From Firmicutes bacterium HGW-Firmicutes-1 (GTDB taxonomy: Bacteria; Bacillota; Clostridia; Lachnospirales; Vallitaleaceae): a DNA stretch of 64,000 nt. Made by a program: the position numbers and the translations under genes. Shown here piece after piece: positions 22,958 to 45,057 of this stretch (positions are counted from its first letter, which is position 1; each line of letters begins with the position of its first letter). Location: contig PHAG01000012.1 in the NCBI GenBank assembly GCA_002841625.1, positions 1 through 64,000 on the forward strand, in the 5' to 3' direction. The notes under the pieces are model-generated. The model saw only the letters and a list, made by a program, of their open reading frames with translations. It searched no databases and was not told where the DNA came from.

Positions 22958-22963
22958 TGTTTG

Positions 22964-26644: not shown

Positions 26645-26646
26645 AA

Positions 26647-26859: not shown

Positions 26860-28029
26860 ATGATAAAAGAAAGACTAGAGTTTATTCCTTTAACAAAGCT
26901 TGAATATTTAGATGATTTGGTATATCAAAATAACGATTATTTTAATTATGATATTGAAGTAATACAAAAACTGCAGTTTGGCTTTATTAAGCAGGCATAC
27001 ACACATCATTATAAAGTCAATAAAGATTTTAGAAATTATTCAAATAGGAGGGGTGTTAAACCAGACGACATAAAAAAACATGAGGATTTAATTAAAATAC
27101 CATTAATACCAAGCAGTATTTTTAAACTTAAAATAGTTAAAAGCTGCAATGAAAATGAAATTATAAAGGTTTGTACAAGCTCTGGAACAAAAGGATCCAT
27201 TAGTAAGGTTTATAGGGATGAGGTCACGTTAAATAGATTTTTAGGTGCAATGCAGACTGTCATTGATAATACTTTAGGCTTGGATGATGTCTTTTGTATT
27301 AATTTAGGCCCTTCAACAGAAGAAGCTGGTGATTTGTGGTTTTCCTATGTATTAAGTTTAATGGATATGGTATTTCCGATGGAGAATTTCATAGTTGACG
27401 GTAATTTTTATCCTCAAAAGGTTGTGGATCAAGTATGTGATGTCGTAGACAGATTTGAAAATATTGTCATCATAGGAGCTCCTATTATGTTTATTGAATT
27501 AATGAAGCATATGGAAGATCATGATATTAAAATCGATAAGTGTAAGTCAATTATGTTTATTACTGCTGGAGGTTGGAAACGTGCCTCGGGGCAAGCGATT
27601 TCTAAGAAAGAATTTTGTGAGCAATTAAAAAAATATTTTATTGGTATGAGTGAAGAGAATTCTAGAGACATATTTAATATGGTTGAGCTAAATACAATTT
27701 TTTGTGAATGTAATAAAAAGATTAAGCATTCTCCGCCATGGGTAAAAATATATATTATCGATCCTTTTACGTTAGAGCTTGTAAAGGATGGAGAAGTTGG
27801 TTTGATAGCTTATTTAGATCCGACAGCAGTAAGTTTTCCTTGTTTTATATTGACAGATGATGTTGGTAAGATTTCATTAAATGGACAATGTGAATGTGGT
27901 CGAACTGGACAAGGTCTTGAAATTATAAGGAGAGTAGAAAGTAAAGAATCCAGGGGTTGTGCTTTGAAAATTGATAAAAGATATTCCACTGAATATTATA
28001 AAGGAGGAGCTAATGGTACGAAGTTTTAA
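26860..28029 (+). CDS. luxE: LuxE-like acyl-protein synthetase
   Basis: 389 residues, close in length to Vibrio LuxE (~375). LuxE activates a fatty acid as acyl-AMP and holds it on a Cys before LuxC reduces it to aldehyde. Matching blocks are IPLIPSSIFKLKIVKS, CTSSGTKGSISKVYRD (ATP-binding), MFITAGGWKR, FNMVELNTIFCEC, and a C-terminal ESRGCALK whose Cys367 fits the acyl-accepting Cys364 of V. harveyi LuxE (LRGCSD). The start follows AAGGGAG. It overlaps luxD by 17 bases. No luciferase genes are in the window. Confidence 0.9.
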   Translation: MIKERLEFIPLTKLEYLDDLVYQNNDYFNYDIEVIQKLQFGFIKQAYTHHYKVNKDFRNYSNRRGVKPDDIKKHEDLIKIPLIPSSIFKLKIVKSCNENEIIKVCTSSGTKGSISKVYRDEVTLNRFLGAMQTVIDNTLGLDDVFCINLGPSTEEAGDLWFSYVLSLMDMVFPMENFIVDGNFYPQKVVDQVCDVVDRFENIVIIGAPIMFIELMKHMEDHDIKIDKCKSIMFITAGGWKRASGQAISKKEFCEQLKKYFIGMSEENSRDIFNMVELNTIFCECNKKIKHSPPWVKIYIIDPFTLELVKDGEVGLIAYLDPTAVSFPCFILTDDVGKISLNGQCECGRTGQGLEIIRRVESKESRGCALKIDKRYSTEYYKGGANGTKF

Positions 28030-28927
28030 TGAAAGAATTATTAATATAAAAACGAAAAATGGTGACGTCATACATAGCGTTTATAATTATTTCAAAGAGA
28101 ATACACCACTTATTATAATACCACCTCAATTTGAAAAAACTATCAGAACAAATTTAACCTTAATGATTTATTTAATAAATAACGGATTTAATGTACTGAG
28201 ATATGATAATAGATACCATAATGGAAACAGTACAGGAGATATAGAGGACTATAATTTGAAAACAGCATTAGAAGATCTAGAAATAGTTATTCAATATGTT
28301 AAATCTGATTCTAGTATTTATAATAATAATGGTATAGGACTTTTAGGTGTGAGTATAACAAGCCGTATCATATACAGATATCTGAGTGATAGTGTTAAGG
28401 ATATTGATGTTTTTTTAACATTAGTTGGTGTTGTAAATATGCAGTATACGCTGAATTCAATAATCGGCTTTGATATTGTTGATGAGGTGATTAAAGAGCC
28501 GAAAAAAATATGGGGAACTAGAAAAGTTATAAAGTATCCCGTCAATTGGGATAATTTCATAAAAATTCTAATTAACGAAAATATGCACAATTTGGAAACC
28601 GCTAATGAAGATATTCAAAAGATTAAAACACCGATTTATATTATTGCATCTGAAGATGATAAATGGGTTGATATTGAAGAATACGAAAAAGCATTTATTA
28701 CAAATAAAGAAATACTTAAAGGCGTTTACAAGCTTCCAGGTGCAGGACATGAATTATATAAAAATCCTGAGGCTGCAAAATTTGCGGCAGAACAGATTGT
28801 AAAAGTGTTTCAAGAATTTTGGGGCATTGAATCTGAACAACATATTATAAAACCAACAATAACAGACATTATAGCACACAATAAAAAGGAACGTGTTAGG
28901 GAGAAACAATATGAAAACGTAGGTTGA
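28013..28927 (+). CDS. luxD: LuxD-like acyl transferase/thioesterase (alpha/beta hydrolase)
   Basis: 304 residues, the length of Vibrio LuxD. LuxD takes an acyl group from acyl-ACP and releases fatty acid for LuxE. The region VLRYDNRYHNGNSTGDI and then GVVNMQYTLNSIIGFD are specific to LuxD (V. harveyi: GVVNLRYSLERALGFD). The nucleophile Ser114 in GVSITSR falls at the same residue number as in V. harveyi, and GAGHE gives the His. ATG 28013 is chosen because AAAGGAGGAG precedes it; it overlaps luxE, so the pair is coupled. Confidence 0.9.
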   Translation: MVRSFNERIINIKTKNGDVIHSVYNYFKENTPLIIIPPQFEKTIRTNLTLMIYLINNGFNVLRYDNRYHNGNSTGDIEDYNLKTALEDLEIVIQYVKSDSSIYNNNGIGLLGVSITSRIIYRYLSDSVKDIDVFLTLVGVVNMQYTLNSIIGFDIVDEVIKEPKKIWGTRKVIKYPVNWDNFIKILINENMHNLETANEDIQKIKTPIYIIASEDDKWVDIEEYEKAFITNKEILKGVYKLPGAGHELYKNPEAAKFAAEQIVKVFQEFWGIESEQHIIKPTITDIIAHNKKERVREKQYENVG

Positions 28928-28966
28928 TAAAGTCAACTTTTACAATTTATGAGGAGGAAATTAAAG

Positions 28967-30025
28967 ATGGTTATTGCATTAAAAGAAGAAACAAATCTGA
29001 TTACACCCAAAAAGAGTTGGAATGATCTAAAATTTCATTATTTATCAGTCATTGAAGATCCCTGGTATAAATCTGTAATGGATTTGCAGCATTTAATATC
29101 TTACTATACCTATATGTTTTATGAACAAAGAAATTTGAAAACTTTACATTTACCAATTACAACAAGCTCAATATCTAGTCCTATGGGATTAGGTAGCGAT
29201 TCAACGCCTGTAAAAGTAAATATATGTGATGTTGATACATATCTTGCAGATTCTATGCAATTTATGCTTGAGTATGGATGTAGAATTTATGAAGAAGGCT
29301 GCTTTTATATCATGCCTTCTTTTAGAGGAGAAGTAGCAGACGAAAGACATTTATGCCAGTTCTATCATAGTGAAGCAGAAATAATAGGTGGCCTTGATGA
29401 TGTAATAGCTTTAATAGAGGATTACGTTAAGTATTTATGTGAGAAACTTATAGAAAGCTATGAAGAAAAGTTATTAAAAGTAGCTGGAACTGTAGAGCAT
29501 ATAAGAGAAATATTAGCGGTAGTTGATGGATTTCCACGCATTACCTTACAAGAAGCAATAAAATTACTTGACAAAAAATATTCTAACTCTCTAAAACCGC
29601 TATATATCAAACACCCTGAAGGATTTACTATATTAACGAACTATGGTGAGAAAAAACTGATAGAGTTATTTGGAGGGATTGTATGGGTTACTCACTTTGA
29701 GCATTTGTCATTACCTTTCTACCAAGCATTCTCGGATAAAGAACAAAAATATGCATTAAATGCAGATTTATTATTTGGTATAGGAGAAGTCATTGGGGCA
29801 GGAGAAAGACATAAAGATTACGAAAAAGTGAAAAAAGCATTAAAAATTCACCAAGTAGAGGAACAGGAATATGAATGGTATTGTAATATGAAAAAGAAGT
29901 ATCCTATGCAAACTGCTGGTTTTGGGATGGGTGTTGAAAGATTTATATTATGGATATTACAACATGATGATATAAGAGATTGCCAAGTCCTTCCAAGATT
30001 TAATGGTATTAATTGTTTGCCATAA
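28967..30025 (+). CDS. AsnRS-related class II synthetase core without anticodon-binding domain
   Basis: 352 residues, beginning directly in a class II aminoacyl-tRNA synthetase catalytic core of the Asn/Asp type. TSSISSPMGLGSDSTPV precedes a flipping-loop-like region, motif 2 is PSFRGEVADERHLCQFYHSE (conserved FRxE), and motif 3 is GFGMGVERFILWILQHDDIRD with the conserved ER. The ~110-residue OB-fold that binds the anticodon in true AsnRS/AspRS is missing. Archaeal AS-AR, an asparagine synthetase derived from AsnRS, has the same architecture. So it probably activates Asp/Asn or a related acid without tRNA, perhaps to form an amide. ATG 28967 follows GAGGAGG. Confidence 0.8.
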   Translation: MVIALKEETNLITPKKSWNDLKFHYLSVIEDPWYKSVMDLQHLISYYTYMFYEQRNLKTLHLPITTSSISSPMGLGSDSTPVKVNICDVDTYLADSMQFMLEYGCRIYEEGCFYIMPSFRGEVADERHLCQFYHSEAEIIGGLDDVIALIEDYVKYLCEKLIESYEEKLLKVAGTVEHIREILAVVDGFPRITLQEAIKLLDKKYSNSLKPLYIKHPEGFTILTNYGEKKLIELFGGIVWVTHFEHLSLPFYQAFSDKEQKYALNADLLFGIGEVIGAGERHKDYEKVKKALKIHQVEEQEYEWYCNMKKKYPMQTAGFGMGVERFILWILQHDDIRDCQVLPRFNGINCLP

Positions 30026-30136: not shown

Positions 30137-30208
30137 TGCGGTGTAGCTCAATTGAAGAGCACTTGGTTCATTCCCAGGAAGATATTGGTTCAAATCCAGT
30201 CACCGTAA
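30137..30208 (+). tRNA. Divergent tRNA with CAU (Met) anticodon
   Basis: 72 nt folding as a cloverleaf. Acceptor TGCGGTG/CACCGTA pairs 7 of 7 with one G-U; D stem GCTC/GAGC; anticodon stem CTTGG/CCAGG with loop TTCATTC (anticodon CAU); five-base variable region; T stem ATTGG/CCAGT with canonical loop TTCAAAT; discriminator A. It resembles elongator tRNA-Met. Departures: the D loop (AATTGAA) lacks the G18-G19 pair, position 37 is T instead of a purine, the first pair is T-A, and no CCA is encoded. It is embedded in a locus with two MetRS paralogues. Confidence 0.75.
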
Positions 30209-30251
30209 CTCGTACGGTATAATATTAACGGTAAACAAGGTGGGTATTTAT

Positions 30252-32438
30252 ATGAAAAACATAAATTGTGTTGATATTATAGAGATAGATTCTGAAGTAT
30301 TATTACCATTTGCTTATTATTTAGCAGGGATGTATAAAAATCTAACATTTAATTCAGCGGTACCTTCCTTAAATACACAGCATACAAAATTGATAAAAGA
30401 AAGCCTGGATTTTTTAGGAATAGAGTATCAAACGGTAATGTTACAAGACAAAATAGAGCCAGTTGAATGGGATAAATTGTGTAATAAAATGTGTGATTCT
30501 ATACTCCATAATTTGATTGAAGTATATAAAGAACTTTATCCAAATCAGTTATTAGACTTAGAGGTAACTAAAGTAAAACATGAGGATTTAAAGGATCAAC
30601 CTATAATTGTGGGAATTACCGAGCAGGGTTTAGAACAAGCACTAAAAGGGGGTATTTTATTAGGAAGAACTGTAGTATATATTAATAAATTAAATGCCAT
30701 AGCGGACTTTTTTGAAATATCAAAAATGGCTTCCTCAACTATATTATGTTTTGATGAAGAATTTGAAGTTCAGCAAATGAAGTTCATCTTGGATCAGAAG
30801 ACAAAAGCAAAAAATTTAGTCCCTATAGGCTTTATGTATCCTTTTGGTCAATTGAATAGAGAAAATGTAATAACTAAAGCATTTATTTTTAATACCTATA
30901 GAAAAAAAGCAAAACTATTTAACTTTTACTATCCCTTAGAAAAGCAAAATGCATCCTTTAAGTCTGAAAAGTTTAATTTTTTTATTGGTAACACTCAGGA
31001 AGAAATAAAGGATTATATATTAAAGGAAGCCGAGTTTACGTTTGCAACACCACATTCAAACGGTGTAGATATGTCTATTGGTAACGTTGTATTGTGTGCT
31101 AAGAAAGACTATATAAAGGAGGAAGAAGATGAAATAAACAGGGTGATGCCATGCTTTTATTCTGATAGTTGTAATAGACTATCTCAAAATCGTTATTATA
31201 TAGGTGCAAGTGAGATAAAAAGTAAAATACTTTTTTTATATACCTGTTGGGGGATTGTTTTGAAAAATGGTATATATGATGTGCGAACAACACTTGCTTA
31301 TCAATTTGCTAAGTCAGTCTATTCACCCATTCTTATAACAACGTATGCTATGTCCTTACTTGACAGATATGCAGGACCTTATATTGTGGATTTGTATTGT
31401 ATGGGGAAAAAAATAGGAGAAGCGATTGAATCATACAATAATAAGCATTATGAAAAATATATGGATTTGAATAACGTAGTTGTTTTATTTGGAGATCCAG
31501 AATTTAAACTTGAGATAAGCTCTGTAATTAATTTCAATGCGATTTTAACTGAAACGAAAAAATTAAGTGACTTTTTTCGCGAAGAAAACACAGGAAAACT
31601 TTGTTTTCATTTATTTGATAAAAATTTCTTTAATAACTTGGATTTTACAGATTATGTATTAAATGGGACTGCTTCATTGGGAATGAAGTATATACAGGAA
31701 GATATTGATGTGTTGAGAGAAAAAGTGAGAAATCTAAGAATGAATGCATCGCTGTTAAATAACCGTATGATGCAATCTAAACAATTTGTATACGATTATG
31801 ATAAAAGTATTAAACAATTGAGTGTAGCCTATAAAGGTTTTCAAGTAGCATGGTATGAATTTTATAAAACCATGGTTAATAATTTGGGTGGATATATTAG
31901 ATTTCAAGTGGATAGATATTTTTCGATGCCTGAGGAAGACAAAGAAGGTTTGCATAGGGAATGTCCATATTGTAAAACTTGTGTAAAAATAGAGAAAAAA
32001 GAACTGCAACCACACGGTTTGAAACGAAGACTAATAGAGTGTTTTAATTGTGCAACTATATTCGATGGGCTCGATTCGTTTTTATGGGGTGAAATAAAAT
32101 GTGAGGAGGAATGGCGGCAAGGCAGTATGGTTAAAGTTTCTGTAGAGGCTTATACAAAAATGAGTGGTGAATATTGTTATTTAATAGGGCTTATCGTTGA
32201 ACCGTTTGATAAAAAGAAAGGATTAAATATGCCTGCAACTTTTAAAAAGGGAAAGATTGACTTGGGAAAAATGGACTTAAATATATGCTTAGATGAGCTT
32301 TACATATACGATTATATAGATTTAGGTTGTTATCATTTAAATTGTATTATACTAGTAAATGAAAAAATTGTTTTTTTGAGACGACCTATATATATTACAA
32401 GGGGGAATAAAGAAGATGATGAAAAGTCAATATTGTAG
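30252..32438 (+). CDS. Large protein with clan-CD-like (caspase fold) peptidase signatures and a zinc ribbon
   Basis: 728 residues, no family recognised with certainty. The middle part shows the clan CD pattern of C25/CHAT-type Cys peptidases: His268 in ATPHSNGVD, then a hydrophobic strand ending in Cys332 (KILFLYTCWG), then YQFAKSVYSPILITTYA and VVLFGDPEFKL, which resembles the end of C25 domains. Residues ~570-610 form a zinc ribbon (CPYC and CFNC pairs). A coiled segment lies between. If the reading is right, it could cut the leader from a peptide precursor. ATG 30252 follows AAGGTGGG; its end overlaps the YcaO gene by 23 bases. Confidence 0.5.
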   Translation: MKNINCVDIIEIDSEVLLPFAYYLAGMYKNLTFNSAVPSLNTQHTKLIKESLDFLGIEYQTVMLQDKIEPVEWDKLCNKMCDSILHNLIEVYKELYPNQLLDLEVTKVKHEDLKDQPIIVGITEQGLEQALKGGILLGRTVVYINKLNAIADFFEISKMASSTILCFDEEFEVQQMKFILDQKTKAKNLVPIGFMYPFGQLNRENVITKAFIFNTYRKKAKLFNFYYPLEKQNASFKSEKFNFFIGNTQEEIKDYILKEAEFTFATPHSNGVDMSIGNVVLCAKKDYIKEEEDEINRVMPCFYSDSCNRLSQNRYYIGASEIKSKILFLYTCWGIVLKNGIYDVRTTLAYQFAKSVYSPILITTYAMSLLDRYAGPYIVDLYCMGKKIGEAIESYNNKHYEKYMDLNNVVVLFGDPEFKLEISSVINFNAILTETKKLSDFFREENTGKLCFHLFDKNFFNNLDFTDYVLNGTASLGMKYIQEDIDVLREKVRNLRMNASLLNNRMMQSKQFVYDYDKSIKQLSVAYKGFQVAWYEFYKTMVNNLGGYIRFQVDRYFSMPEEDKEGLHRECPYCKTCVKIEKKELQPHGLKRRLIECFNCATIFDGLDSFLWGEIKCEEEWRQGSMVKVSVEAYTKMSGEYCYLIGLIVEPFDKKKGLNMPATFKKGKIDLGKMDLNICLDELYIYDYIDLGCYHLNCIILVNEKIVFLRRPIYITRGNKEDDEKSIL

Positions 32439-34677
32439 CTTAGCTAAAATAATATATGAAGCAGAAATGGGTAAAGTCTGTGTTATAGAAAAAATGGGTC
32501 ATACAAAGAATGAAGTTTATAAAGTTATAGGTGAGGATAATGAAAAATACTTGATTAAGTTATTTCTCAATGAAGGAGATTTAGATATAAAAAACTGTGA
32601 GCTTATTATGTATGAGGTGTTAGGAAGCGTAGGGTATTTGAAGAAATGCTTTAAAAAGGATTTTAACTCAAAGACATATAATATAAGTTATGTTATAACA
32701 GAATACTTGGAGGGAAGAACTCTATTAGAGGTTATTGAAAAGGAGCATTACTCAGAGGAACAATTAAAGAAATATGTTAAACAAATTTATGAATATATTC
32801 AATTTTGTAGGGATATAGAGACAAAAGGCGTTGGTAATATAAATGAGAAGTTGATTGGTGAAGATAATAATTGGTTTAACTTCATGATTAAGTTCCTAGA
32901 TAACTGTTATGAAAGAACAAAAGGATTAAAACCCTGTGATAATGCCACAACTCTTATAGATATAAATTGTTTCTTGAGAAAATATTTAATTCAAAACAAG
33001 GTGTATTTTGAAAATATTATTCCTTCATTGATACCGATTGATTTAAATTTATCTAATTTTTTAATTAAGGATAATGATGAAGTAGTCGTTTTAGATGTAG
33101 ATGCTTTTTGGTCAGGAGATTGCTTTTTGGCAATGGGAGAGTTTATTGGACATATTTATGGAACTCATATTTTTAACTATTTTATTGAGTTATGGTCTGA
33201 TGTATACAAGAAAAACGCAAGATATCTGCATTTTTATGCGCTTTTGAGCAATTATTCTGTGTTGACCTTCTTGTCTAATAATGACATACATAATTTGCAT
33301 AATTATAAGCCATGGGGGAATAAATGTACCTTTTTTGATTTGATTCATTCTCATAGGTACATAGTTGATAATGAAGCTATAAATATCTTGAATATACTAA
33401 AAAACAATCCTTATTTAAATAATGATTGGGGAAAGAAAGTTGAAATGGCTTGTGATAGAGAGGTAGAAATAAAGGAAACTTTATCAAACATAGAACGAAT
33501 ATCAAGTAAAGCTGGGATTACAAGAGTTCCAGAAATAACAGGATTGGATTCTACGGGCATTTTCGCATACCAGTGCATTCGACCAGATGCTGAAAAAAAC
33601 GATGGAACCTTTACTGTATTTTCAGGAAAAGGGACTAGCGAAGAGCAGTGTAAGGTATCTGCTATCGTTGAAGGAATTGAACGATTTTGTGCAGAGAAAA
33701 GAAACTATCACAATGAAATTAAAGTAGCAACTTACGAAGAGATGATAAAAGAGCATAAGGTGATTCATCCTAAAGAGTTTAATTGTCCTAATTCTGTTAA
33801 TTTTTCTGAACAGGAAGTTTTAGAGTGGATACCAGCCCAGGATATTATTTCTGGTAAATGTTATTATATAACTGCAAATGTTGGATTTTATCCATATACA
33901 CCTAATTATGGAAGAATGCTATTTAGATATTTTACAACAGGCTTAGCCGGAGGAAATACTTATAGTGAAGCAATATCCCATGGTATTGCAGAAGCAATAG
34001 AAAGGGATGCGGCTGCCTTGAATTTGTTATTAAGAAATTATCCAGTTCTTATTAAGGATACTGTTACCAGCAAAAATGCGAGGGTAATTATTGAAAAAAT
34101 ACAGAACTCAAAATCGAGTTTAAATCTGATTATAAGATATATTACAACAATAGACATTAATGTCCCTGTTTTTTCAGTCATAATTGAAGATAAAGATATA
34201 GAAGATCCTTTGTTTATTAGTGGAGGCTATGGTGCACATCCCAATAAAGAAATTGCGTTAATAAATGCTTTAAACGAAGCAGCACTTTCAAGAGTAAGTA
34301 CAATCAGCGGTTCAAGAGAGGATCTTGAAAAGTTTAGAAAGGCTAAAGAAAATAAAGATTATGCTACCTTTAAACAAAAATATAATTATTGGTTCTCTAC
34401 TCAAGAACAAATTTCTTACGATGAAATTGAAGATTATAAATCTATTTTTTTAATGGAAGACATTGGATATATGTGTGATTGCTTAAAAAATGCGGGGTTG
34501 GAGAAAGTATTAATGGTAGATTTGTCGAACCCAGATATTCGTTTCCCTGTCGTTAAAATGCTTATCCCGGGAATTGAAAGATACTCATATGAAAGAGTTT
34601 GTATTGGTACTAGAGCAAAAATGTATTATAACTTAGTACATAATAAAAATACAAATAATAGTATTGTAAAGGCTTAA
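32416..34677 (+). CDS. ycaO: Aminoglycoside-phosphotransferase-like domain fused to YcaO
   Basis: 753 residues. Residues ~1-300 look like an APH/choline-kinase fold: a Lys strand (KYLIKLFL), then IPIDLNLSNFLIKDNDEVVVLDVDAF as catalytic and metal loops (the usual HGD is IDL here, so activity is doubtful). Residues ~355-753 are YcaO: GITRVPEITGLDSTGI, SGKGTSEEQCKVSAIVEGIERF and SEAISHGIAEAIERDAA supply the ATP-binding acidic residues. The C-terminus lacks the Pro-rich PxPxP end of azoline-forming YcaO proteins, as expected for TfuA-dependent, thioamide-forming ones. YcaO phosphorylates a backbone amide for attack by sulfide. A kinase-YcaO fusion is unusual. Confidence 0.85.
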   Translation: MMKSQYCSLAKIIYEAEMGKVCVIEKMGHTKNEVYKVIGEDNEKYLIKLFLNEGDLDIKNCELIMYEVLGSVGYLKKCFKKDFNSKTYNISYVITEYLEGRTLLEVIEKEHYSEEQLKKYVKQIYEYIQFCRDIETKGVGNINEKLIGEDNNWFNFMIKFLDNCYERTKGLKPCDNATTLIDINCFLRKYLIQNKVYFENIIPSLIPIDLNLSNFLIKDNDEVVVLDVDAFWSGDCFLAMGEFIGHIYGTHIFNYFIELWSDVYKKNARYLHFYALLSNYSVLTFLSNNDIHNLHNYKPWGNKCTFFDLIHSHRYIVDNEAINILNILKNNPYLNNDWGKKVEMACDREVEIKETLSNIERISSKAGITRVPEITGLDSTGIFAYQCIRPDAEKNDGTFTVFSGKGTSEEQCKVSAIVEGIERFCAEKRNYHNEIKVATYEEMIKEHKVIHPKEFNCPNSVNFSEQEVLEWIPAQDIISGKCYYITANVGFYPYTPNYGRMLFRYFTTGLAGGNTYSEAISHGIAEAIERDAAALNLLLRNYPVLIKDTVTSKNARVIIEKIQNSKSSLNLIIRYITTIDINVPVFSVIIEDKDIEDPLFISGGYGAHPNKEIALINALNEAALSRVSTISGSREDLEKFRKAKENKDYATFKQKYNYWFSTQEQISYDEIEDYKSIFLMEDIGYMCDCLKNAGLEKVLMVDLSNPDIRFPVVKMLIPGIERYSYERVCIGTRAKMYYNLVHNKNTNNSIVKA

Positions 34678-34708: not shown

Positions 34709-34846
34709 GTGAGTATTGAGAATAAAGAGGATAAATCAACAAAAGAAGATAATAAGGAGAATATTGAATACTTTGAACTTAATGAGGGATTAGACGAAAT
34801 TTTTGACGAATTTGAAGTAGGGCCAGAAACCGCATTGATGTGGTGA
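34709..34846 (+). CDS. Candidate precursor peptide (45 aa)
   Basis: A GTG-started 45-residue frame, eight bases after AAAGGGGGTG, directly downstream of the YcaO gene and 27 bases before the methyltransferase. It is highly acidic. Residues 1-18 are a Lys/Glu/Asp/Asn-rich start, then IEYFELNEGLDEIFDEFE looks like a helical leader recognised by a modification enzyme, and the short C-terminus is VGPETALMW. There is no Cys or signal peptide. Position, size and composition fit a ribosomal peptide precursor with a core in the last ~9 residues. No homologue was recognised, so its function is inferred from context. Confidence 0.65.
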   Translation: MSIENKEDKSTKEDNKENIEYFELNEGLDEIFDEFEVGPETALMW

Positions 34847-34873: not shown

Positions 34874-35731
34874 ATGATTTTACAAGAGTATTTAGCAGAG
34901 GATATTAAAAAAATGGATTACAATCAGTTAATAGGCTTGGTAAAGGAAACCAATAGACCACCTGGGGGTTTTAACAGTATAAAATTGTTGGCATTAAGTG
35001 CATTTTTAACACCCAATAGCAGGGTGCTTGAAATAGGAACAAGTACGGGGATAACCTCAATTGAATTAGCCAAACTTGTAGGCTGTAAAATTAAGGCGAT
35101 TGATATCAATCCAGTTAGTATTGAAGAAGCAAAGAAAAGAGCCAAGGCCGAAGGTGTTGATAACTTAATAGAATTTGAAGTTCAAGATGCAACAAATACA
35201 ACCTTTCCTGACAACTTCTTTGATATGGTTTTCTGTGGGAATGTAACCTCTCTCATTGAACAGAGAGAAAAGGCTTTTGCTGAATATATTCGTGTGCTTA
35301 AGAAAAATGGTTTTATAGCGGCCATTCCTATGTATTACATAAAAAAACCATCTAAAGAATTAATTGAAGACGTATCAGCTGCAATACAAGTTAATATTAT
35401 CCCCTGGGATAGAAAGTATTGGTTTGAATTCTTTAAGGACGAAAAAATAGAATTATGTTGGTATGAAAATTATCAATTTGATACTATTAAGACTGAAGAT
35501 GTTCATGCTTTTTCGGATGAAATATTAAAAAGAGACCATCTAAAGTGTTTGAAATTGGAGGCTTATGAAGTGCTTAAGAAAAAATATAGAGAGTTTATGA
35601 TGCTATTTAGGGATAATTTAAGTCATATGGGTTACAGTTTAATGTTAATCAGAAAAACACAATATGAAGTGGATAATGAACTTTTCACATCAAGCATCAT
35701 TACTGATGATAATCAAGTATATGGTTATTAA
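34874..35731 (+). CDS. SAM-dependent class I methyltransferase
   Basis: 285 residues. SAM-binding motif I is VLEIGTSTGITSIELAK, motif II/acidic ribose contact is KIKAIDINP, and DNFFDMVFCGNVTSL plus YIRVLKKNGFIAAIP complete the Rossmann methyltransferase core (residues ~40-165). The C-terminal ~110 residues are variable and should give substrate choice. AAGGAG precedes the ATG. Its place between the candidate precursor and the DHH gene suggests tailoring of the product; the atom methylated is unknown. Confidence 0.85.
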   Translation: MILQEYLAEDIKKMDYNQLIGLVKETNRPPGGFNSIKLLALSAFLTPNSRVLEIGTSTGITSIELAKLVGCKIKAIDINPVSIEEAKKRAKAEGVDNLIEFEVQDATNTTFPDNFFDMVFCGNVTSLIEQREKAFAEYIRVLKKNGFIAAIPMYYIKKPSKELIEDVSAAIQVNIIPWDRKYWFEFFKDEKIELCWYENYQFDTIKTEDVHAFSDEILKRDHLKCLKLEAYEVLKKKYREFMMLFRDNLSHMGYSLMLIRKTQYEVDNELFTSSIITDDNQVYGY

Positions 35732-35749
35732 TTAATAGGGAGGTATATG

Positions 35750-36739
35750 ATGCGTGAGGTATGTATTATATCCCATTCTGGAGATCCAGATGGCATTTTT
35801 TCACAGGCACTTTTGTTAAAGCATACAAGAAACGCAGTTTCTCGTATTCATAGTTTTATGATTGAAAATGATGAAATCATCCAACTCCTAAAGCGTGATG
35901 AAATAAGAAATTGTAGTGAATTGTATATTGCAGATTTGCCGCTAAATGAAGCGGCTATAACTGATAGTGAATTATTAGAATTATTGTCAGATAAAGATTT
36001 ATATTATTATGATCACCATTATTTGAGCAACAGTAGAGACAATCTTTTGAAGAATATTTGCAAAGTTTACTTGAGAGAAGAGGCAGTTTGTGCAGCTAAA
36101 ATTATCTCTCGAGTTCTTTTTCCATTAGAGCCATATCCCGAATTTGTATCTGAAATAGCACAAGCTTGTGATTTTAATATTATAAATGACAGGTTTTGGG
36201 TAGGCCAGAAATTAAGAAGAATAATAAGCGTAATATCAATTGATGAAAGAGATGAACTTGTAGATGATATTATTCGAGGAACATGGTTTGACGGAATGAA
36301 TCTTCATGAAAAATATGTGGCTAAAGAAAGTGAAGCTAATAAGTTGGAAAAGGCTGCGATTATGTTTATGAATGAAATGACAGAATTATTTGAGATTAAA
36401 GATTACAAATTTGCGATTTCATATGCATCACAAATTTTATACATGAAGCCTGGTCTAAGCAATTTAGCAGTATGCAATCCTCAATGTGATGCGGTCATTG
36501 TTTTATATGAGGGAAAGTCTGATGTATTATTAACAGCTGCATTAGGAATAAATGCAAATGCAATACCCATTTTGGAATATTGTGTTTATAAAGGAGGTGG
36601 AGGTAGAAATAACGCAGGAGGATATAAGTTAGAAAAAGAAAAAATAATAAGTCGTGAAAACTATCTAGAAATCAAGAACCATATTATAAAGGATTTTACA
36701 GAGTATTTAAAAACAATTGAATTTGAATATAATTATTAA
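35750..36739 (+). CDS. DHH/DHHA1 family phosphoesterase
   Basis: 329 residues with the DHH metal-dependent phosphoesterase signature: SHSGDPDGIFSQ (DxD motif, with Ser/Gly altered from HxDxDG), ADLP, YYDHH (the DHH motif), and a DHHA1 substrate domain ending in GGGGRNNAGGYKL. Family members cleave nanoRNA, pAp or cyclic dinucleotides with Mn. The altered first motif (HSGDPDG) keeps both Asp. In this locus it may clear AMP-type by-products or hydrolyse a nucleotide intermediate, an inference. The start at 35750 gives better spacing to GGGAGG than the ATG at 35747. Confidence 0.82.
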   Translation: MREVCIISHSGDPDGIFSQALLLKHTRNAVSRIHSFMIENDEIIQLLKRDEIRNCSELYIADLPLNEAAITDSELLELLSDKDLYYYDHHYLSNSRDNLLKNICKVYLREEAVCAAKIISRVLFPLEPYPEFVSEIAQACDFNIINDRFWVGQKLRRIISVISIDERDELVDDIIRGTWFDGMNLHEKYVAKESEANKLEKAAIMFMNEMTELFEIKDYKFAISYASQILYMKPGLSNLAVCNPQCDAVIVLYEGKSDVLLTAALGINANAIPILEYCVYKGGGGRNNAGGYKLEKEKIISRENYLEIKNHIIKDFTEYLKTIEFEYNY

Positions 36740-36813: not shown

Positions 36814-38298
36814 ATGGAAAAATCAATACATCTACCAGTTATTGTAGGCGGTAAAAAAGTATATCCAAATGAGGATAGAGAGAACTATATTATTTCATAT
36901 GATTCGGGTGTTAAAGTTGTAATTCCTACAATTACAAATGAGGAAATTCAACAATTACAAGAATCAAATAAATATATATTACATGATTTAAATATTCAAG
37001 AAATCATATCTTTTTTTGTGAAAGTTGGAAAATTTTGGAGAGTAAATAATTTAAACAATCCTTTATATGAAGAGGCACTTGTAAATTTATGTTTAATCAA
37101 TGGCTACGATAAAAAGATGGCAATAAGAGAGTTAAACATTATTGGGTCAGCTTGTTCACAGTTATCGGGAATGTATGACTTGATTGATCTTGAACTTGGA
37201 AATAGATTCTATTTAGAAGAATGGGTTCCACGAGGAGATGTCTTAGTTCATGTTCAGCCAGTAGGAAACGTATTAAATATTATGGTTGGGAATGTACCTG
37301 TTTCAGGGATAATGTCATTACTTAGAAGCAGCCTTACAAAAAACCAAACAATTGCAAAAATACCTAAAAGAGATCCTATTACGGTAATGTATTTTGTCAT
37401 GTCTATGATAGAGTTATTCCCAGACCATCCTATCACAAGATCAATGAATGTATTGTATTGGCCTGGTGGTAATGAAATCGAATCCACAATTATAGATATG
37501 GCAAATGCTGTATGTGTTTGGGGAAGCGAACAAGCAGTGAAAAGTATACGTTCAAAGGTTAAAAATGGTGTAAATGTAGTTGAATTTGGTCCAAAGATGA
37601 GTTATGCATTAGTGGGGAAAGAATCTGTTAACTGCGAAAAAGTTGCAATAGACCTTGCACACGATATTTCAATATACAATCAAGAAGCTTGTTTTTCACC
37701 ACAAATTGCATTCGTTGAAGGAAATTACAAGTTGTTTATTGAGCATCTAAAAATGGGTTTAAAGTTATATAGCAAATTATTTCCAAAAGGAACAATTATT
37801 GCTGATGCCAATGCACATGTATCTCGGACAAGGTTAGAAGCGTTATATAATGGCAACGAAGTATATTATGATGACCAGAAGGAATGGACTATTATTACCA
37901 TTAACAGCTTAGATGAGATTAACGAACACCCTCTTAATCGAGTTATTTTCGTTAAACCTATAAAGAATATCACGGACTGTCTTGAATATATTGATGAAAC
38001 TGTTCAAACTATTGCAATTTCTCCATGGGACAGAAATGTAGAAATAAGAGAAATTGCAACCTTAAAAGGTGCAGCAAAAGTTACTGAAATAGGATTAGTA
38101 GAAGCAATGAGAAATGGATCAACACATGATAACGTATACCCAATGCAGCATTTAGTAAGATGGGTATGTGTTGAAAGAGGTTGTGATTACTGGGGTAAAT
38201 ACATTGAGGATGGGCCTTTAGACACTACTAAATGGATTATGATGAATGAAAAGGAATTAGAAAACATTGATGCTTACTTAGAAAATGATGTAATCTGA
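36814..38298 (+). CDS. luxC: LuxC-like acyl-CoA/acyl-protein reductase
   Basis: 494 residues, the length of Vibrio LuxC. It is an aldehyde-dehydrogenase-superfamily enzyme that reduces the acyl group presented by LuxE to a fatty aldehyde with NADPH. Clear LuxC blocks: LPVIVGGKKV at the start, YDLIDLELGNRFYLEEWVPRG, AGNVP-type VGNVPVSGIMSLLRSSLTKNQ, MNVLYWPGGNEIE, VEFGPKMSYALVG, and IYNQEACFSPQ whose Cys293 fits the catalytic Cys of LuxC. It lies apart from luxE/luxD with RiPP-type genes between, all on one strand. AGGAGAAG precedes the ATG. Confidence 0.92.
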   Translation: MEKSIHLPVIVGGKKVYPNEDRENYIISYDSGVKVVIPTITNEEIQQLQESNKYILHDLNIQEIISFFVKVGKFWRVNNLNNPLYEEALVNLCLINGYDKKMAIRELNIIGSACSQLSGMYDLIDLELGNRFYLEEWVPRGDVLVHVQPVGNVLNIMVGNVPVSGIMSLLRSSLTKNQTIAKIPKRDPITVMYFVMSMIELFPDHPITRSMNVLYWPGGNEIESTIIDMANAVCVWGSEQAVKSIRSKVKNGVNVVEFGPKMSYALVGKESVNCEKVAIDLAHDISIYNQEACFSPQIAFVEGNYKLFIEHLKMGLKLYSKLFPKGTIIADANAHVSRTRLEALYNGNEVYYDDQKEWTIITINSLDEINEHPLNRVIFVKPIKNITDCLEYIDETVQTIAISPWDRNVEIREIATLKGAAKVTEIGLVEAMRNGSTHDNVYPMQHLVRWVCVERGCDYWGKYIEDGPLDTTKWIMMNEKELENIDAYLENDVI

Positions 38299-39225: not shown

Positions 39226-39426
39226 ATGCGAGTAAATGTGAATGGAAAAATAACTAATGTTAGTAAAAATGAAAAACTTTTAGATTTGTTGGAACAAATT
39301 GAATTAAATCCAAAGTCAGTAGTAATAGTATATAATGGAGAAACATTACCCAGAGATGAGTGGGATGCAGCTCATTTAAAAGAAGAGGATACAATAGAAA
39401 TTATAAAGTTTATAGTTGGAGGTTGA
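39226..39426 (+). CDS. ThiS-like sulfur-carrier protein
   Basis: 66 residues of ubiquitin-like beta-grasp type: MRVNVNGKITNVSKNEKLLD, VVIVYNGETLPRDEWD, EEDTIEIIKFIVGG. The C-terminal Gly-Gly is the site that an E1-like enzyme adenylates and converts to a thiocarboxylate, a deliverable sulfur. It lies five bases before the ThiF-like gene. There is no thiG, thiH or other thiamine gene nearby, so it is more likely to serve the YcaO/TfuA pair than thiamine. AAAGGAGAG precedes the ATG. Confidence 0.88.
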   Translation: MRVNVNGKITNVSKNEKLLDLLEQIELNPKSVVIVYNGETLPRDEWDAAHLKEEDTIEIIKFIVGG

Positions 39427-39431
39427 TATCT

Positions 39432-40229
39432 ATGTCCACCGATATATATAATCTGATAAATGAGAAAGAAGTGCAAAGGTATTCAAGACAAATTATGCTT
39501 AAGGGTGTAGGCATAGAAGGACAAAAAAAGTTAAAGAATGCAAAGGTATTAGTTGTAGGCACTGGAGGACTTGGATCTCCAATTTTATATTATCTAGCGG
39601 CTGTAGGTGTTGGAACTCTTGGGATAGTAGATTTTGACATAGTTAATCGTACCAACCTACAGAGACAAATACTTCATTATGAAAAAGATCTTTCAAGATA
39701 TAAAGTAGACTCTGCAGAGGAGAAATTGTTAGAGCTTAATAATAATATTAAAATTATTAAACATAAGCAAAAAATTGATGAATTTAATATTGAAAAAATT
39801 ATAATTGATTATGATATTGTTGTTGATGCAGTTGATAATTTGAAATCTAGATATATTATTAACGATTTCTGCCATTTTTTGAATAAGCCACTGGTTGAAG
39901 GTGCTGTATCAGGTTTTGAGGGCATATTGTTAACAATTTTGCCCTCCTTTAAAACCTGTTGTTATAGATGTTTATTTCCAGAACAAGAAGAAGAGGCTGT
40001 TACATACGGAAGTGAAAACGGTATATTAGGGGCAGTTGCTGGCGGTCTTGGAAGTCTTATGGCATTAGAGGTTATAAAGCTAATATTAGGTATAGGAACA
40101 CCTTTAACAAACAAAGTATTTGTTTATGATGGTTTAAATTTAAAATTTAGAGAAATAGAAATCGCTCATAAAAAAGATTGCATATTATGTGGTGAAGCAC
40201 CACAATTAAAACGAGAGTTTTATTACTGA
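39432..40229 (+). CDS. ThiF/MoeB-like E1 adenylyltransferase
   Basis: 265 residues. The nucleotide-binding loop GTGGLGSPILYYLAAVGVG, then DFDIVNRTNLQRQILH with the Arg/Gln residues of E1 enzymes, and zinc Cys pairs in CYRC and CILC. It should adenylate the C-terminal Gly of the adjacent ThiS-like protein. At the position of the ThiF persulfide Cys there is Ser (TYGSENG), so it is MoeB-like and sulfur must come in via another protein. A distant relative, MccB, builds microcin C on a peptide, worth keeping in mind given the MccF-like gene downstream. ATG 39432 follows GGAGG. Confidence 0.88.
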   Translation: MSTDIYNLINEKEVQRYSRQIMLKGVGIEGQKKLKNAKVLVVGTGGLGSPILYYLAAVGVGTLGIVDFDIVNRTNLQRQILHYEKDLSRYKVDSAEEKLLELNNNIKIIKHKQKIDEFNIEKIIIDYDIVVDAVDNLKSRYIINDFCHFLNKPLVEGAVSGFEGILLTILPSFKTCCYRCLFPEQEEEAVTYGSENGILGAVAGGLGSLMALEVIKLILGIGTPLTNKVFVYDGLNLKFREIEIAHKKDCILCGEAPQLKREFYY

Positions 40230-40271: not shown

Positions 40272-41750
40272 ATGAAAAAAATAATTACTACTGCTGCCTA
40301 TCCATTCATTCCAGCAGAGCTTAACATGGCACATATGGCAAGTACATATATTCCAGCGGATGTGTATCATAGATTTATGAAATTGCTTGGGTATAATAGT
40401 GTTTTTGTTTCGGCTACGGATGTTCATGGTGTAGCCGTCAAAAATATATTGAAAAATAATGATATGGATTTAGAAGAAATAATTTGCACTTTTCACGAAA
40501 AATATAAAAAGTTATTTTCCTGTTTAAACGTAAAATTCGACACTTACAGCAGAACAGATACCAGGGATGTTGAAGAACTTGTTCGTCAATCTCTTATAAA
40601 GATTAAAGAAAAGGGTTATATTATTAAGAAAGAAAGTAGCAATTACTATTGTAAGCAATGTTCGGAATATCTTCCCAAGAGATTTCGTATTAAGACTCAA
40701 GAATTTACCCAAACAAATAAGATGAAGTTAAGTGGTAATCAAGAGGACATGTGCTGTTTTTTTTGTGGTAATACAGAAATTGCAGAACAAAAAATTGATC
40801 ATTGGTTTCTTGACATTCCTAAAGGCAAAGAGATTATTAGTGAGATAGTTACAAAACAAACTAATAAAAACGTAAAAACATATTTAGAATCTGTAATCAA
40901 TTTAGGTCTAAAGGAATGGGATTTTACAAGAGAGGACTATATAGGGATTAGGATTCCATTTGAAGAAAAAGAACAATATATTTATTTATGGTATGAGTCT
41001 TTGATTGCATATATGACACTCTTTGATAGAGAGGAAGATGTAGAACTTAGGCACTTTATGGGTAAAAATATTATTTACTATCATGGCATTATTTGGCCAT
41101 TACTTTTAAGGGAAGGTTTAAATATTAAAAATATGGATATGCATATTTGTGCAAAGGGATTTATGAATATTACAAAATCAGACTCAGTACTAATAGATAT
41201 TGAAAAAGCTGTTCAAAAATTTGATAAAGATTATTTAAGGTTTTATATTATATATAGAACCCAGGACACAATTGATGATTTTAGTTTTACAGAAAATCAT
41301 TTTAAGCAGATCATAAATAAAGTTTTGTGCCGTCAGCTAGGCGGATTCCTTAATAGGTGTAGAAGTATTTTAATGAAAAATAAAGTAGAAAATGTTCCGA
41401 AATGGAATAAAGAAGACGAGTTATTAACGGACAGTAAGCCTTTATTAGAAGTGGCTATTTTAAATATGAATGTTAATAATGCATTAATGCTTGTAATTGA
41501 GTATATTAAAAAATGCGGAAAATATATTCAATTACATACTATATACAAATCACCTTCTAAGGAACAACTTGGTTTATTATGTCACATGATGGCATCAGTA
41601 ATTATTTTGCTCAAACCTTTTATTCCGGATGTAATAAATAATTACAATATATTTAATAACATAGAATTAAAATCCTTGGATCAATTAGAATTTTTAGAAG
41701 GGGAAAAAGTAATATATAATAATTTGATATGGGAGATGCTTGATGAATAA
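40272..41750 (+). CDS. Degenerate methionyl-tRNA-synthetase-like protein
   Basis: 492 residues, collinear with MetRS but with altered key motifs. The HIGH box is NMAH (in LNMAHMAS) and the KMSKS loop is NITKS. Methionine-pocket residues stay: Asp in SATDVHG, Trp in YIYLWYES, His in NIIYYHGIIWP. The zinc knuckle (CKQC, CCFFC) is kept. In the anticodon domain, the Trp of the LPWQL block (which reads the CAU anticodon in MetRS) is replaced: GKYIQLHT. It probably binds methionine or an analogue without normal tRNA-Met charging. It ends overlapping the MccF-like gene by eight bases. Confidence 0.82.
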   Translation: MKKIITTAAYPFIPAELNMAHMASTYIPADVYHRFMKLLGYNSVFVSATDVHGVAVKNILKNNDMDLEEIICTFHEKYKKLFSCLNVKFDTYSRTDTRDVEELVRQSLIKIKEKGYIIKKESSNYYCKQCSEYLPKRFRIKTQEFTQTNKMKLSGNQEDMCCFFCGNTEIAEQKIDHWFLDIPKGKEIISEIVTKQTNKNVKTYLESVINLGLKEWDFTREDYIGIRIPFEEKEQYIYLWYESLIAYMTLFDREEDVELRHFMGKNIIYYHGIIWPLLLREGLNIKNMDMHICAKGFMNITKSDSVLIDIEKAVQKFDKDYLRFYIIYRTQDTIDDFSFTENHFKQIINKVLCRQLGGFLNRCRSILMKNKVENVPKWNKEDELLTDSKPLLEVAILNMNVNNALMLVIEYIKKCGKYIQLHTIYKSPSKEQLGLLCHMMASVIILLKPFIPDVINNYNIFNNIELKSLDQLEFLEGEKVIYNNLIWEMLDE

Positions 41751-42732
41751 ACGTATAAGAAAAGGTGATACAGTTTATGTATGTGCACCTTCAAATTCCA
41801 TGAGTGATATTAGTGATGAAATGATAAAAATAGGGGTAGAACGATTTAATACATTAGGGTATAATGTAAAAATAGGAAAAAATGCGAATAAAGAAGGGGT
41901 AATGGGAATTGCTTCTTTAGAAGATAGACTTGAAGATTTTGAAGCAGCATTTAACGATGAAAGAATTTCATTGATTATGCCCATTTTTGGAGGGTACAAT
42001 TCTAATGAGTTGTTAAAACACTTAGATTATGGGAAAATAAATCGTTCTGGCAAGACTATCATTGGTTATAGTGATATTACAGCTTTACTGAATGCTATTA
42101 ATATGAAAACGGGTAATAAAATGCTCCATGGTATCTCATTTTCATCTTTTTGTGATCCTAATATTTTTGATGAAGTCGTAAATATTTTTTTGAAAATAAT
42201 TGAGGGAGAAAAAAATATTATTTTAGAGTCTCCAGAATATTGTGCCGAGGATTTATGGTTTTTGAAAAAAAAGTATGGACCTAGAGAAAAATATAAAAAT
42301 ACTGGTTGGCGGATTGTGAAAGAAGGAGAAGCGGAGGGGGAATTAGTAGGAGGTAACATTGATACTTTACTTACTTTGTTGGGTACAGAATTTTTCCCTA
42401 ATATGGACAACAAAATATTATTAATTGAAGCTGAATTTAATCAAAATCCTAAAAAATTTATGCAAATGTTAACACAGCTCATGCAAATGGGATGTTTATC
42501 AATTATAAAAGGTCTAGTAGTAGGAGCTTTTTCACGGACAAACTTATTATATGAGCCCAATGTATTGGACGAAATGTTAATAAGGTATACAAAAGGATAT
42601 AATTACCCTATTATTTCTAACACTCATTTTTCACATATAGATCCAATTTATACGATTCCAATTGGTGGTAGAGTCCATATCGATTGCATTGAGAAGCCGT
42701 CTATATGTATTAAAGATTCTTTGTATGATTGA
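41743..42732 (+). CDS. MccF-like S66 peptidase (LD-carboxypeptidase family)
   Basis: 329 residues of the S66 Ser peptidase family. The nucleophile is Ser110 in GKTIIGYSDITAL, with a late Glu (LLIEAEF) and His (SNTHFSHIDP). The long middle loop (GWRIVKEGEAEGELVGGN) is the MccF type rather than the LdcA type. MccF protects microcin C producers by cutting the amide bond of the processed aminoacyl-nucleotide toxin, which blocks an aminoacyl-tRNA synthetase. Between two MetRS paralogues, a self-immunity job is a natural inference; murein recycling is the alternative. ATG 41743 overlaps the previous stop. Confidence 0.85.
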   Translation: MNKRIRKGDTVYVCAPSNSMSDISDEMIKIGVERFNTLGYNVKIGKNANKEGVMGIASLEDRLEDFEAAFNDERISLIMPIFGGYNSNELLKHLDYGKINRSGKTIIGYSDITALLNAINMKTGNKMLHGISFSSFCDPNIFDEVVNIFLKIIEGEKNIILESPEYCAEDLWFLKKKYGPREKYKNTGWRIVKEGEAEGELVGGNIDTLLTLLGTEFFPNMDNKILLIEAEFNQNPKKFMQMLTQLMQMGCLSIIKGLVVGAFSRTNLLYEPNVLDEMLIRYTKGYNYPIISNTHFSHIDPIYTIPIGGRVHIDCIEKPSICIKDSLYD

Positions 42733-42799: not shown

Positions 42800-44359
42800 A
42801 TGAATTCAATTTATATCACCACACCTATTTATTATGCTAGTGGAAGCCCACATTTAGGTCATGCCTATACCACGATACTTGTCGATAGCTTTATAAAGTA
42901 TTATAAAATGCTTGGTTATGATACTAAATTTACAACTGGAACTGACGAACATGGGTTGAAAATTGAAAGAATATCAGAAAAAAATAATAAAAAACCTGAA
43001 GAGTTAGTAAATGAATTGGCAAAGAAATTTCAAAACGCATGGGGCAAATTAGAAATTGAATATGATGATTTTATAAGAACAACTGAAGATAGACATAAAA
43101 CGGTAGTAATGGATATGTGGAACAGAATGGAGAAAAATGGAGATATTTATCTTGGTAAATATGAAGGATTGTATTGTGTTGATTGTGAACAATACTATGC
43201 GGAAGGTGAATTGCTAGAAGATAACGTATGTCCTATCCATAACAAAAACGTTGAAGTTATGAGTGAAGATACTTACTTTTTTAAGTTATCTAAGTACCAT
43301 GATACTTTAACAAAATATATTGAAGATAATCCTGATTTTATACAGCCTATTACAAGAAAAAATGAAGTATTAGGTTTTTTAAGATGCAATACATTGCAGG
43401 ACCTTTCAATATCCAGAACTTCCTTTAAATGGGGAATACCTGTACCAAATGATGACAAGCATATTATGTATGTATGGATAGATGCATTAACAAACTATAT
43501 CTCTAGTTTAGGTGGCATAGATTCAGAAGATTTTATACAATATTGGTCAAACACAATTCATTTTATTGGGAAAGACATTCTAAGATTTCATGCCATTTAT
43601 TGGCCGTGTATGCTTCTTTCGGTTGGAATTCCATTGCCTAAAGCGATTATTGTACATGGGTGGTGGACGATTTCAAATAAAAAGATATCAAAGTCAGATC
43701 CAGCTACGAAAATAGATCCTACAGCTTTAGCGGAAGATATTACCTTAGATGGACTTAGATATTTTTTATTAAAGGAATTAACACTAGGAAAAGATGGAAA
43801 TATTGATTGGAATCATTTAATAGCTAGTTTGAATTCAGGACTTGCAAACAATATTGGAAATCTTGTTAATAGAACGGTTAATATGATTAATAAATATCTT
43901 GGAGGGGAAACTCCTATAGTTTTAATGGATACAATAAATGAGTTTGATTTAGAAGTAAAAAATGGTGCCTTTGTGATGGTAGAAAAAGCAATGAGTTATA
44001 TGGATGAATTTAACCCAGCAGGTGCAGTAAATAGCATTATTGAGTACGGTAATATACTTAATGGTTATTTAGATAAAACATTGCCATGGCAGTTAGTAAA
44101 ATACCCTGAACAGAAGGATAGACTTGGTGAAATATTTGCATATTTAATTGAAGGAATTAGATGGATTTCAAATTTGATATATCCATTTACGCCTAAAATT
44201 GCTACAGTCATTAAAGAACAAGTAGATTTTGAAAAAGAATTTAAATGGGTATTAGAGTTTGAACTTAATAAGAAAGTCATTCTAAATGATGGAATTATCG
44301 TATTTAAACGTATTAGCAAGGACGAAGAAAAGGAATTGCTTGAAAAATGGGAGAAGTAA
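42800..44359 (+). CDS. Second, apparently functional methionyl-tRNA synthetase
   Basis: 519 residues. HIGH box is SPHLGHAYTT, the zinc knuckle CVDC...CPIH is in place, the methionine pocket residues are present (YVWIDAL, DILRFHAIYWP), KMSKS is KKISKSDP, and the anticodon domain keeps NLVNRTVN and LPWQLVK with the anticodon-reading Trp. It lacks the ~130-residue C-terminal tRNA-binding extension of many bacterial MetRS. It may be a product-resistant self-protection copy or charge the cluster's own CAU tRNA. TAAGGAG precedes the ATG. The tfuA start overlaps its stop. Confidence 0.85.
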   Translation: MNSIYITTPIYYASGSPHLGHAYTTILVDSFIKYYKMLGYDTKFTTGTDEHGLKIERISEKNNKKPEELVNELAKKFQNAWGKLEIEYDDFIRTTEDRHKTVVMDMWNRMEKNGDIYLGKYEGLYCVDCEQYYAEGELLEDNVCPIHNKNVEVMSEDTYFFKLSKYHDTLTKYIEDNPDFIQPITRKNEVLGFLRCNTLQDLSISRTSFKWGIPVPNDDKHIMYVWIDALTNYISSLGGIDSEDFIQYWSNTIHFIGKDILRFHAIYWPCMLLSVGIPLPKAIIVHGWWTISNKKISKSDPATKIDPTALAEDITLDGLRYFLLKELTLGKDGNIDWNHLIASLNSGLANNIGNLVNRTVNMINKYLGGETPIVLMDTINEFDLEVKNGAFVMVEKAMSYMDEFNPAGAVNSIIEYGNILNGYLDKTLPWQLVKYPEQKDRLGEIFAYLIEGIRWISNLIYPFTPKIATVIKEQVDFEKEFKWVLEFELNKKVILNDGIIVFKRISKDEEKELLEKWEK

Positions 44360-45057
44360 AAAAAATAAATAAAATTGTTTTAGATAAGAATATTTCACCA
44401 ACTATTTTTATTGGGTCTTCTATGTCTCAAAAAGAGGTCAAAGCTATAATGAAAATTGAAGCTGATATAAAACCTCCAATAAGAAGAGGTGATTTAAAAC
44501 AAATCAATCCACATACACAACTGGTTGCCATTGTTGATGGCATTTTTTACTCTAATCTTGCTATATCACCAAGAGAGATACTGGATCTTTTAGAAAGAGG
44601 TATAACTGTTATTGGTAGCTCTAGCATGGGTGCATTGAGGGCAGTAGAGCTTGATAGATATGGAATGGAGGGTATTGGGAGAATTTATAATATGTATAAA
44701 AATAATATTATACAATCTGATGCTGAGGTTGCCTTGACATTTTCGCCTAAAGATTATAAACCAATAACTGAGCCATTAGTTAATATTAGATATGCGATAA
44801 AGGAAGCGGAAGAGCATCAGATTGTTAGTGTATCAGAAGTAAATACCATCGTAGAATGTGCGAAGCGTATTTACTTTAGTGACTTGTCATACAATAACTT
44901 ATTCAAGACACTGAAGGGTTTAATTAGAGAAGAAACGATTGAAAAACTTAATAGATTTATAAATGAAAACAAACAGAGGCTTGATCTGAAAAGAAACGAT
45001 GCTATTGAACTCATAAACTATATTGATGATATGTATGAAAGATATGGTAAATGCTAA
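44347..45057 (+). CDS. tfuA: TfuA-like protein
   Basis: 236 residues. The TfuA core is plain: FIGSSMSQKEV, RRGDLKQINPHTQLVAIVDG, LLERGITVIGSSSMGALRAVEL, YGMEGIGRIYNMYK and ITEPLVNIRYAI. TfuA partners YcaO in thioamide formation (methyl-coenzyme M reductase thioglycine, thioviridamide-type peptides), probably by handling the sulfur donor. It overlaps the MetRS stop by 13 bases, about 10 kb from the YcaO gene but on the same strand. It is the last gene of the locus. Confidence 0.92.
   Translation: MGEVKKINKIVLDKNISPTIFIGSSMSQKEVKAIMKIEADIKPPIRRGDLKQINPHTQLVAIVDGIFYSNLAISPREILDLLERGITVIGSSSMGALRAVELDRYGMEGIGRIYNMYKNNIIQSDAEVALTFSPKDYKPITEPLVNIRYAIKEAEEHQIVSVSEVNTIVECAKRIYFSDLSYNNLFKTLKGLIREETIEKLNRFINENKQRLDLKRNDAIELINYIDDMYERYGKC

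Follow-up and report, generated by a model that had tools for sequence, protein, structure and literature searches.

A kinase-like domain fused to a TfuA-partnered YcaO protein in a rare Firmicutes gene cluster that includes its own tRNA

Organization of the locus

We analysed a window of 64,000 nucleotides (positions 1 to 64,000 of contig PHAG01000012.1 of Firmicutes bacterium HGW-Firmicutes-1), in which an ORF joining a kinase-like domain to a YcaO domain lies within a long series of genes that all run on the forward strand. In order, these encode an Agr-type regulator, a sensor, AgrB, an AgrD-like peptide, LuxE, a LuxD-like acyltransferase, an AsnA-like synthetase, a tRNA-Met, a protease-like protein, the fusion, a 45-aa peptide, a methyltransferase, a DHH-like protein, LuxC, ThiS, ThiF, a first MetRS-like protein, an S66 peptidase, a second MetRS-like protein and TfuA (Table 1). 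A related locus in Paenibacillus woosongensis contains the counterparts whose identities are listed in the table, and also has a ThiS/Urm1 protein, a tRNA-Met, the fusion and the peptide, with ThiF on the other strand.

Table 1. Features of the cluster and their positions in the window (identities refer to the Paenibacillus woosongensis counterpart)
Feature	Position	Strand	Basis
AsnA-like class II synthetase, without anticodon-binding domain	28949..30025	+	NF005053 2e-80; 61-63% identical
tRNA-Met (CAU), no encoded CCA	30137..30209	+	ARAGORN, Rfam
Putative cysteine protease, caspase/gingipain-like (clan CD), with zinc ribbon; candidate leader peptidase	30249..32438	+	motifs
Kinase-YcaO fusion	32416..34677	+	753 aa, ATG start, uninterrupted ORF
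APH/protein-kinase-like N-terminal domain (aa 1-340)	32416..33435	+	profile-profile match, shuffle controls, conservation peak at catalytic loop
YcaO domain (aa 343-753), TfuA-partnered thioamide type	33442..34677	+	Pfam, TIGR03266, MJ1094, alignment
Putative precursor/carrier peptide, ~45 aa, GTG start, C-terminus EVGPETALMW	34712..34846	+	counterpart in same place
SAM methyltransferase	34874..35731	+	Pfam Methyltransf_25 2e-20; 69% identical
DHH-family phosphoesterase-like protein	35747..36739	+	Pfam DHH 1.1e-4, below cut-off; 33% identical
ThiS-like sulfur carrier	39226..39426	+	TIGR01683 1.5e-17
ThiF/MoeB-like adenylyltransferase	39432..40229	+	Pfam ThiF 5.7e-74
MetRS-like protein 1, degenerate HIGH (NMAH) and KMSKS (NITKS)	40272..41750	+	Pfam tRNA-synt_1g 1.4e-69; alignment
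S66 (LD-carboxypeptidase / MccF family) peptidase	41746..42732	+	Pfam S66 3.6e-30, S66C 4.1e-28; 50% identical
MetRS-like protein 2, intact HLGH and KISKS	42800..44359	+	Pfam tRNA-synt_1g 1.2e-104
TfuA-like protein, sulfur-delivery partner of YcaO	44347..45057	+	Pfam TfuA 1e-40; ~51-52% identical

The protease-like protein (729 aa) had no significant match in Pfam. It carries a His within TPHSNGVDMSIG, a Cys within FLYTCWG and a CxxC...CxxC zinc ribbon, and its Paenibacillus counterpart, about 39-40% identical, conserves the His and Cys motifs, which would be consistent with a caspase/gingipain-like fold. The DPDG, DHH and GGGR.NAGG motifs of the DHH-like protein are likewise kept in Paenibacillus woosongensis. 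The S66 family includes the microcin C immunity protein MccF, and this gene, kept in both clusters, may serve in self-protection.

The small ORF directly after the fusion encodes a peptide whose Paenibacillus counterpart ends in EIGPETALYW and otherwise diverges from it. The ending common to these 43-45-aa peptides, [VI]GPETAL[MY]W, contains a single invariant Thr, and the cluster thereby defines a conserved precursor motif, GPETALxW. A divergent front combined with a fixed end fits either a RiPP core or the end of a carrier peptide.

The window cluster has fatty-acid reductase genes of the LuxE and LuxD-like (26860-28927) and LuxC-like (36814-38298) types, no luciferase genes being seen there; the Paenibacillus woosongensis locus lacks LuxC, LuxD and LuxE and has in their place an AMP-ligase, an ACP, a glycosyltransferase and a radical SAM gene. 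The stretch between LuxC and ThiS (38330-39100), interrupted by stops, looks like what is left of an ABC transporter ATPase/permease. The genes directly upstream (22226-24274 and 26063-26799) form an Agr-type quorum-sensing system, with a LytTR regulator, a GHKL sensor, AgrB and a 52-aa ORF resembling AgrD, and perhaps control the cluster.

An intact fusion with a complete YcaO half

The initial annotation had placed a kinase-like domain fused to YcaO at this ORF and regarded the architecture as non-standard, and both points held. The ORF is single and intact; its ATG follows a purine-rich ribosome-binding site, aagggggaataaaga, and lies 23 bases inside the 3' end of the protease-like gene. 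An origin of the fusion in a frameshift or sequencing error is ruled out, since the Paenibacillus woosongensis relative is the same fusion in one ORF of 740 aa, 49% identical over residues 17-744. The fusion of the two domains is thus real. The YcaO fusions described in the papers that could be searched join YcaO to TfuA or to a cyclodehydratase (PMC8120280), and neither a kinase-YcaO fusion nor a YcaO cluster with a MetRS was found in that literature, an incomplete collection. Thioamidated RiPP clusters are in any case very rare in Firmicutes, with only one TfuA cluster from this phylum in the same survey (PMC8120280).

A domain search, as the initial annotation had suggested, recovered YcaO and left APH without a match in the window copy (see below). 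Pfam YcaO was matched over the whole model (E = 5.5e-66, residues 403-721), and TIGR03266, which describes the YcaO of McrA-glycine thioamidation, was matched with E = 2.7e-84 (residues 348-733) and a score of 283, below its equivalog cut-off of 365. The best solved relative of this half is MJ1094 (1.1e-39, residues 343-734), which shares the TfuA partner but is a stand-alone protein of about 385 aa acting on McrA. From the extents of these three matches, the YcaO half is complete and the first ~340 residues are an addition. E419, E422, E526 and E529 correspond to the conserved ATP/Mg glutamates and are invariant in the YcaO alignment. With this fold, these glutamates and a TfuA gene in the cluster, as also in Paenibacillus woosongensis, the protein falls among the TfuA-partnered YcaO enzymes.

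YcaO, TfuA and a ThiS/ThiF sulfur relay together form the known way to backbone thioamides, and in archaea TfuA frees sulfide from thiocarboxylated ThiS (PMC8153245). A thioamidation step is therefore well supported by the family evidence, and the product of the cluster is predicted to carry a thioamide.

Kinase-superfamily membership of the N-terminal domain

Single-sequence searches with the first ~340 residues gave little. The window copy had no match to Pfam APH (PF01636) and nothing better than 0.64 in the PDB, Pfam Pkinase was reached with E = 0.006, and the Paenibacillus copy matched APH with 0.013 and 15.7 bits, against a gathering cut-off of 23.2. The top match of a PDB profile search, to a VCP-like ATPase (0.014 over 43 residues), was judged to be due to chance. 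Among the NCBIfam models of RiPP kinases the best lead was the class V lanthipeptide kinase LxmK (E = 0.069, 12.2 bits versus a cut-off of 315), an APH-like peptide kinase whose weak match falls at the catalytic loop; unlike the window protein, LxmK is not fused to YcaO, and it needs a lyase partner.

We therefore rely on profile-profile comparison, in which a two-sequence profile of the domain (both species) was aligned by hhalign with alignments of 19 APH proteins and 18 Ser/Thr kinases taken from genomes of relatives of the window organism. Against APH it scored 78 with the first set and 70 with a rebuilt set (202-207 columns, about 97% probability), and against the Ser/Thr kinases 78 (101 columns, about 97% probability). 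The maxima after shuffling of columns, with 100-200 shuffles per comparison, were 25, 19 and 32, respectively, while the reversed profile reached 21 and an unrelated YcaO alignment 14; these controls rule out a chance resemblance. AlphaFold models of the full protein and of the N-terminal domain, built from the two sequences, had low mean pLDDT (33 and 41), and a fold search with such a model gave no significant match, the insignificant ones including the kinases YihE, fructosamine kinase, APH and TTK. The kinase-fold assignment hence rests on sequence profiles. On these, with similarity beyond chance across both lobes, the domain (residues 1-340) is a member of the APH/protein-kinase superfamily, as the initial annotation had supposed for the N-terminal ~300 residues.

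The alignment sets LIPIDLNLSNFL against the LxHGDxHxxNxL catalytic loop of APH and VVLDVDAFWSGD against the metal-site motif VIDxDxxxxGD. The key residues, K48 (beta3 Lys), E62 (helix-C Glu), D209 (catalytic Asp) and N214 (loop Asn) in or before PIDLNLSN (207-214), and D227 (metal-binding Asp) in LDVDAFWSGD (226-235), are identical in the window and Paenibacillus copies. It had been noted that IDL stands in place of the catalytic HGD; His and Gly are indeed replaced, by Pro and Ile, but the catalytic Asp is kept and was placed one register off, so that a kinase made inactive by loss of HGD is rejected in that form. What is missing in both species is the HxD histidine, which most of the compared APH and Ser/Thr kinases have and which is Pro207 here. 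The most conserved stretch of the domain is residues 203-249, 70% identical between the two species versus 38% for the domain as a whole, a difference reached by 3 of 20000 permutations. The conservation of the active-site loops and the retention of the catalytic residues speak for a working kinase rather than an inert scaffold, whereas the unusual loss of the HxD histidine weakens that reading.

A dedicated tRNA and two MetRS-like proteins

The tRNA-Met (CAU) genes of both clusters (positions 7312-7387 in the Paenibacillus locus) have U37, with G19 changed to A, and their anticodon loops end in CAUUC; the Paenibacillus copy has G33 as well. At position 37, no pyrimidine was seen in any other tRNA examined from this genome. 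Since U37 is abnormal and this genome has other tRNA-CAU genes, the cluster tRNA probably has no part in ordinary translation.

Besides the housekeeping MetRS, encoded on another contig, the genome has the two MetRS-like proteins of the cluster. The first is 48% identical to its Paenibacillus counterpart, which has lost KMSKS entirely. The second, 60% identical between the species, appears to be functional and might act as a resistant version of a target.

Proposed function

Taken together, the cluster probably makes a sulfur-containing (thioamide) peptide compound with the help of its own tRNA and tRNA-charging enzymes. For the fusion, the reading that we prefer, with slightly less than even confidence, is that of a maturase with two functions in a new family of thioamide RiPPs. 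Together with TfuA, ThiS and ThiF, the YcaO half would use ATP to activate an amide in the backbone of the 45-aa precursor and exchange its oxygen for sulfur. The N-terminal kinase would most likely phosphorylate the same precursor, with the invariant Thr of GPETALxW as leading candidate, and with both domains in one protein the peptide could stay bound through the two ATP-dependent steps. The combination in a single chain of two predicted activities that use ATP and modify peptides suggests such a linkage of phosphorylation and thioamidation on one substrate.

There is precedent for the combination in the thioamitides (thioviridamide, thiostreptamide S4), whose clusters, like that of the window, are single RiPP clusters with a short precursor, and in which a separate APH-like kinase occurs alongside YcaO and TfuA; there TsaH is the YcaO, TsaI the TfuA, and the kinase TsaC is proposed to phosphorylate core Thr toward dehydration (PMC8153245). 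Phosphorylation by the fusion could be a step of this kind or a marking step. The thioamitide kinase is paired with the HopA1-like TsaD (PMC8153245), whereas no lyase of the HopA1 or LanL type turned up among the scanned cluster proteins, which leaves dehydration of a phospho-Thr without an obvious enzyme. The tRNA, MetRS-like, AsnA-like and protease-like genes are additions of the window cluster relative to the thioamitides. A thioamide-type YcaO in a fusion is also known from Burkholderia thailandensis, its partner being TfuA and not a kinase (PMC8120280).

A serious rival to an active peptide kinase, if a somewhat improbable one, is that the kinase fold is an inactive binding domain that recognises a leader peptide or charged tRNA and replaces the RRE/E1-like partner usual for YcaO enzymes. 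The histidine of HxD is, after all, lost in both species, no RRE-type protein was recognised among the cluster proteins, and the cluster holds a tRNA and MetRS-like proteins, the nearby tRNA gene making the tRNA-binding idea less far-fetched. However, the remaining catalytic residues are kept, conservation within the domain is highest in the active-site loops, and TfuA-type YcaOs lack such a domain in the loci that were examined. We consider it quite unlikely that the domain is a kinase whose acceptor is not the peptide but a small molecule, an amino-acid intermediate or the dedicated tRNA. Many APH members do act on small molecules, and the DHH phosphoesterase-like protein, the LuxC/D/E-like fatty-acid reduction genes and the abnormal tRNA could be read in that sense, but a peptide acceptor fits better with the fusion to a peptide-modifying YcaO and with a gene position immediately ahead of the precursor, and the Paenibacillus woosongensis locus does without LuxC/D/E.

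A further model concerns the whole cluster and can be combined with any reading of the kinase. Met from the dedicated tRNA-Met would be joined to the C-terminus of the 45-aa peptide as a scaffold, thioamidated and otherwise modified there, and then cut free by the protease to give a Met-derived antimetabolite directed at MetRS, with MetRS-like protein 2 and S66 giving self-protection. The conserved peptide end, the U37 tRNA-Met of both clusters, the two MetRS-like proteins in addition to the housekeeping one and the S66 peptidase point this way, as does the likeness to pearlin pathways (TglA/3-thiaglutamate), in which a ribosomal scaffold of about 50 aa is charged from aminoacyl-tRNA (PMC9016710). 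Yet pearlin pathways use LanB-like PEARLs, peptide aminoacyl-tRNA ligases of which none was recognised when the proteins of the two clusters were scanned, and the peptides already end in Met-Trp or Tyr-Trp; we regard the model as possible but doubtful. The same tentative standing applies to a hybrid pathway of a new class, in which the kinase-YcaO fusion would process a ribosomal precursor while the non-translating tRNA-Met and the MetRS-like enzymes supply or carry a residue for a thioamide antimetabolite against methionyl-tRNA synthetase. With a tRNA whose abnormal anticodon loop is conserved, the use of a dedicated non-ribosomal tRNA in the synthesis of a peptide natural product becomes directly testable.

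Distribution

Judged from the genomes sampled, the cluster is rare and common to the window organism and one distant Paenibacillus. The kinase half was not found beyond these two in partial samples of 392 genomes of the order, 391 of the class and 398 of the phylum, nor, apart from Paenibacillus woosongensis itself, in partial samples of 394 genomes of the Paenibacillus family and 398 of that family's class, pattern scans of this kind detecting only some relatives. The Paenibacillus woosongensis relative was detected by an alignment-based search, a scan of genome contigs with the single protein having given no relative. Six weak matches to the N-terminal domain among the 391 class genomes (E-values of 2e-4 to 6e-4, in reading frames of 1044-1182 aa) were judged spurious.

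Viral contigs held no relative of the fusion, and plasmids gave matches to its YcaO half only. Standalone sets of YcaO and TfuA, in some cases with ThiF, are present on plasmids of Pantoea and Paraburkholderia, preceded by an ORF of 50-54 aa. Lying directly upstream of YcaO-TfuA (5756-5908 in L017 and 5726-5890 in L018), these small ORFs are likely precursors of other thioamidated peptides.
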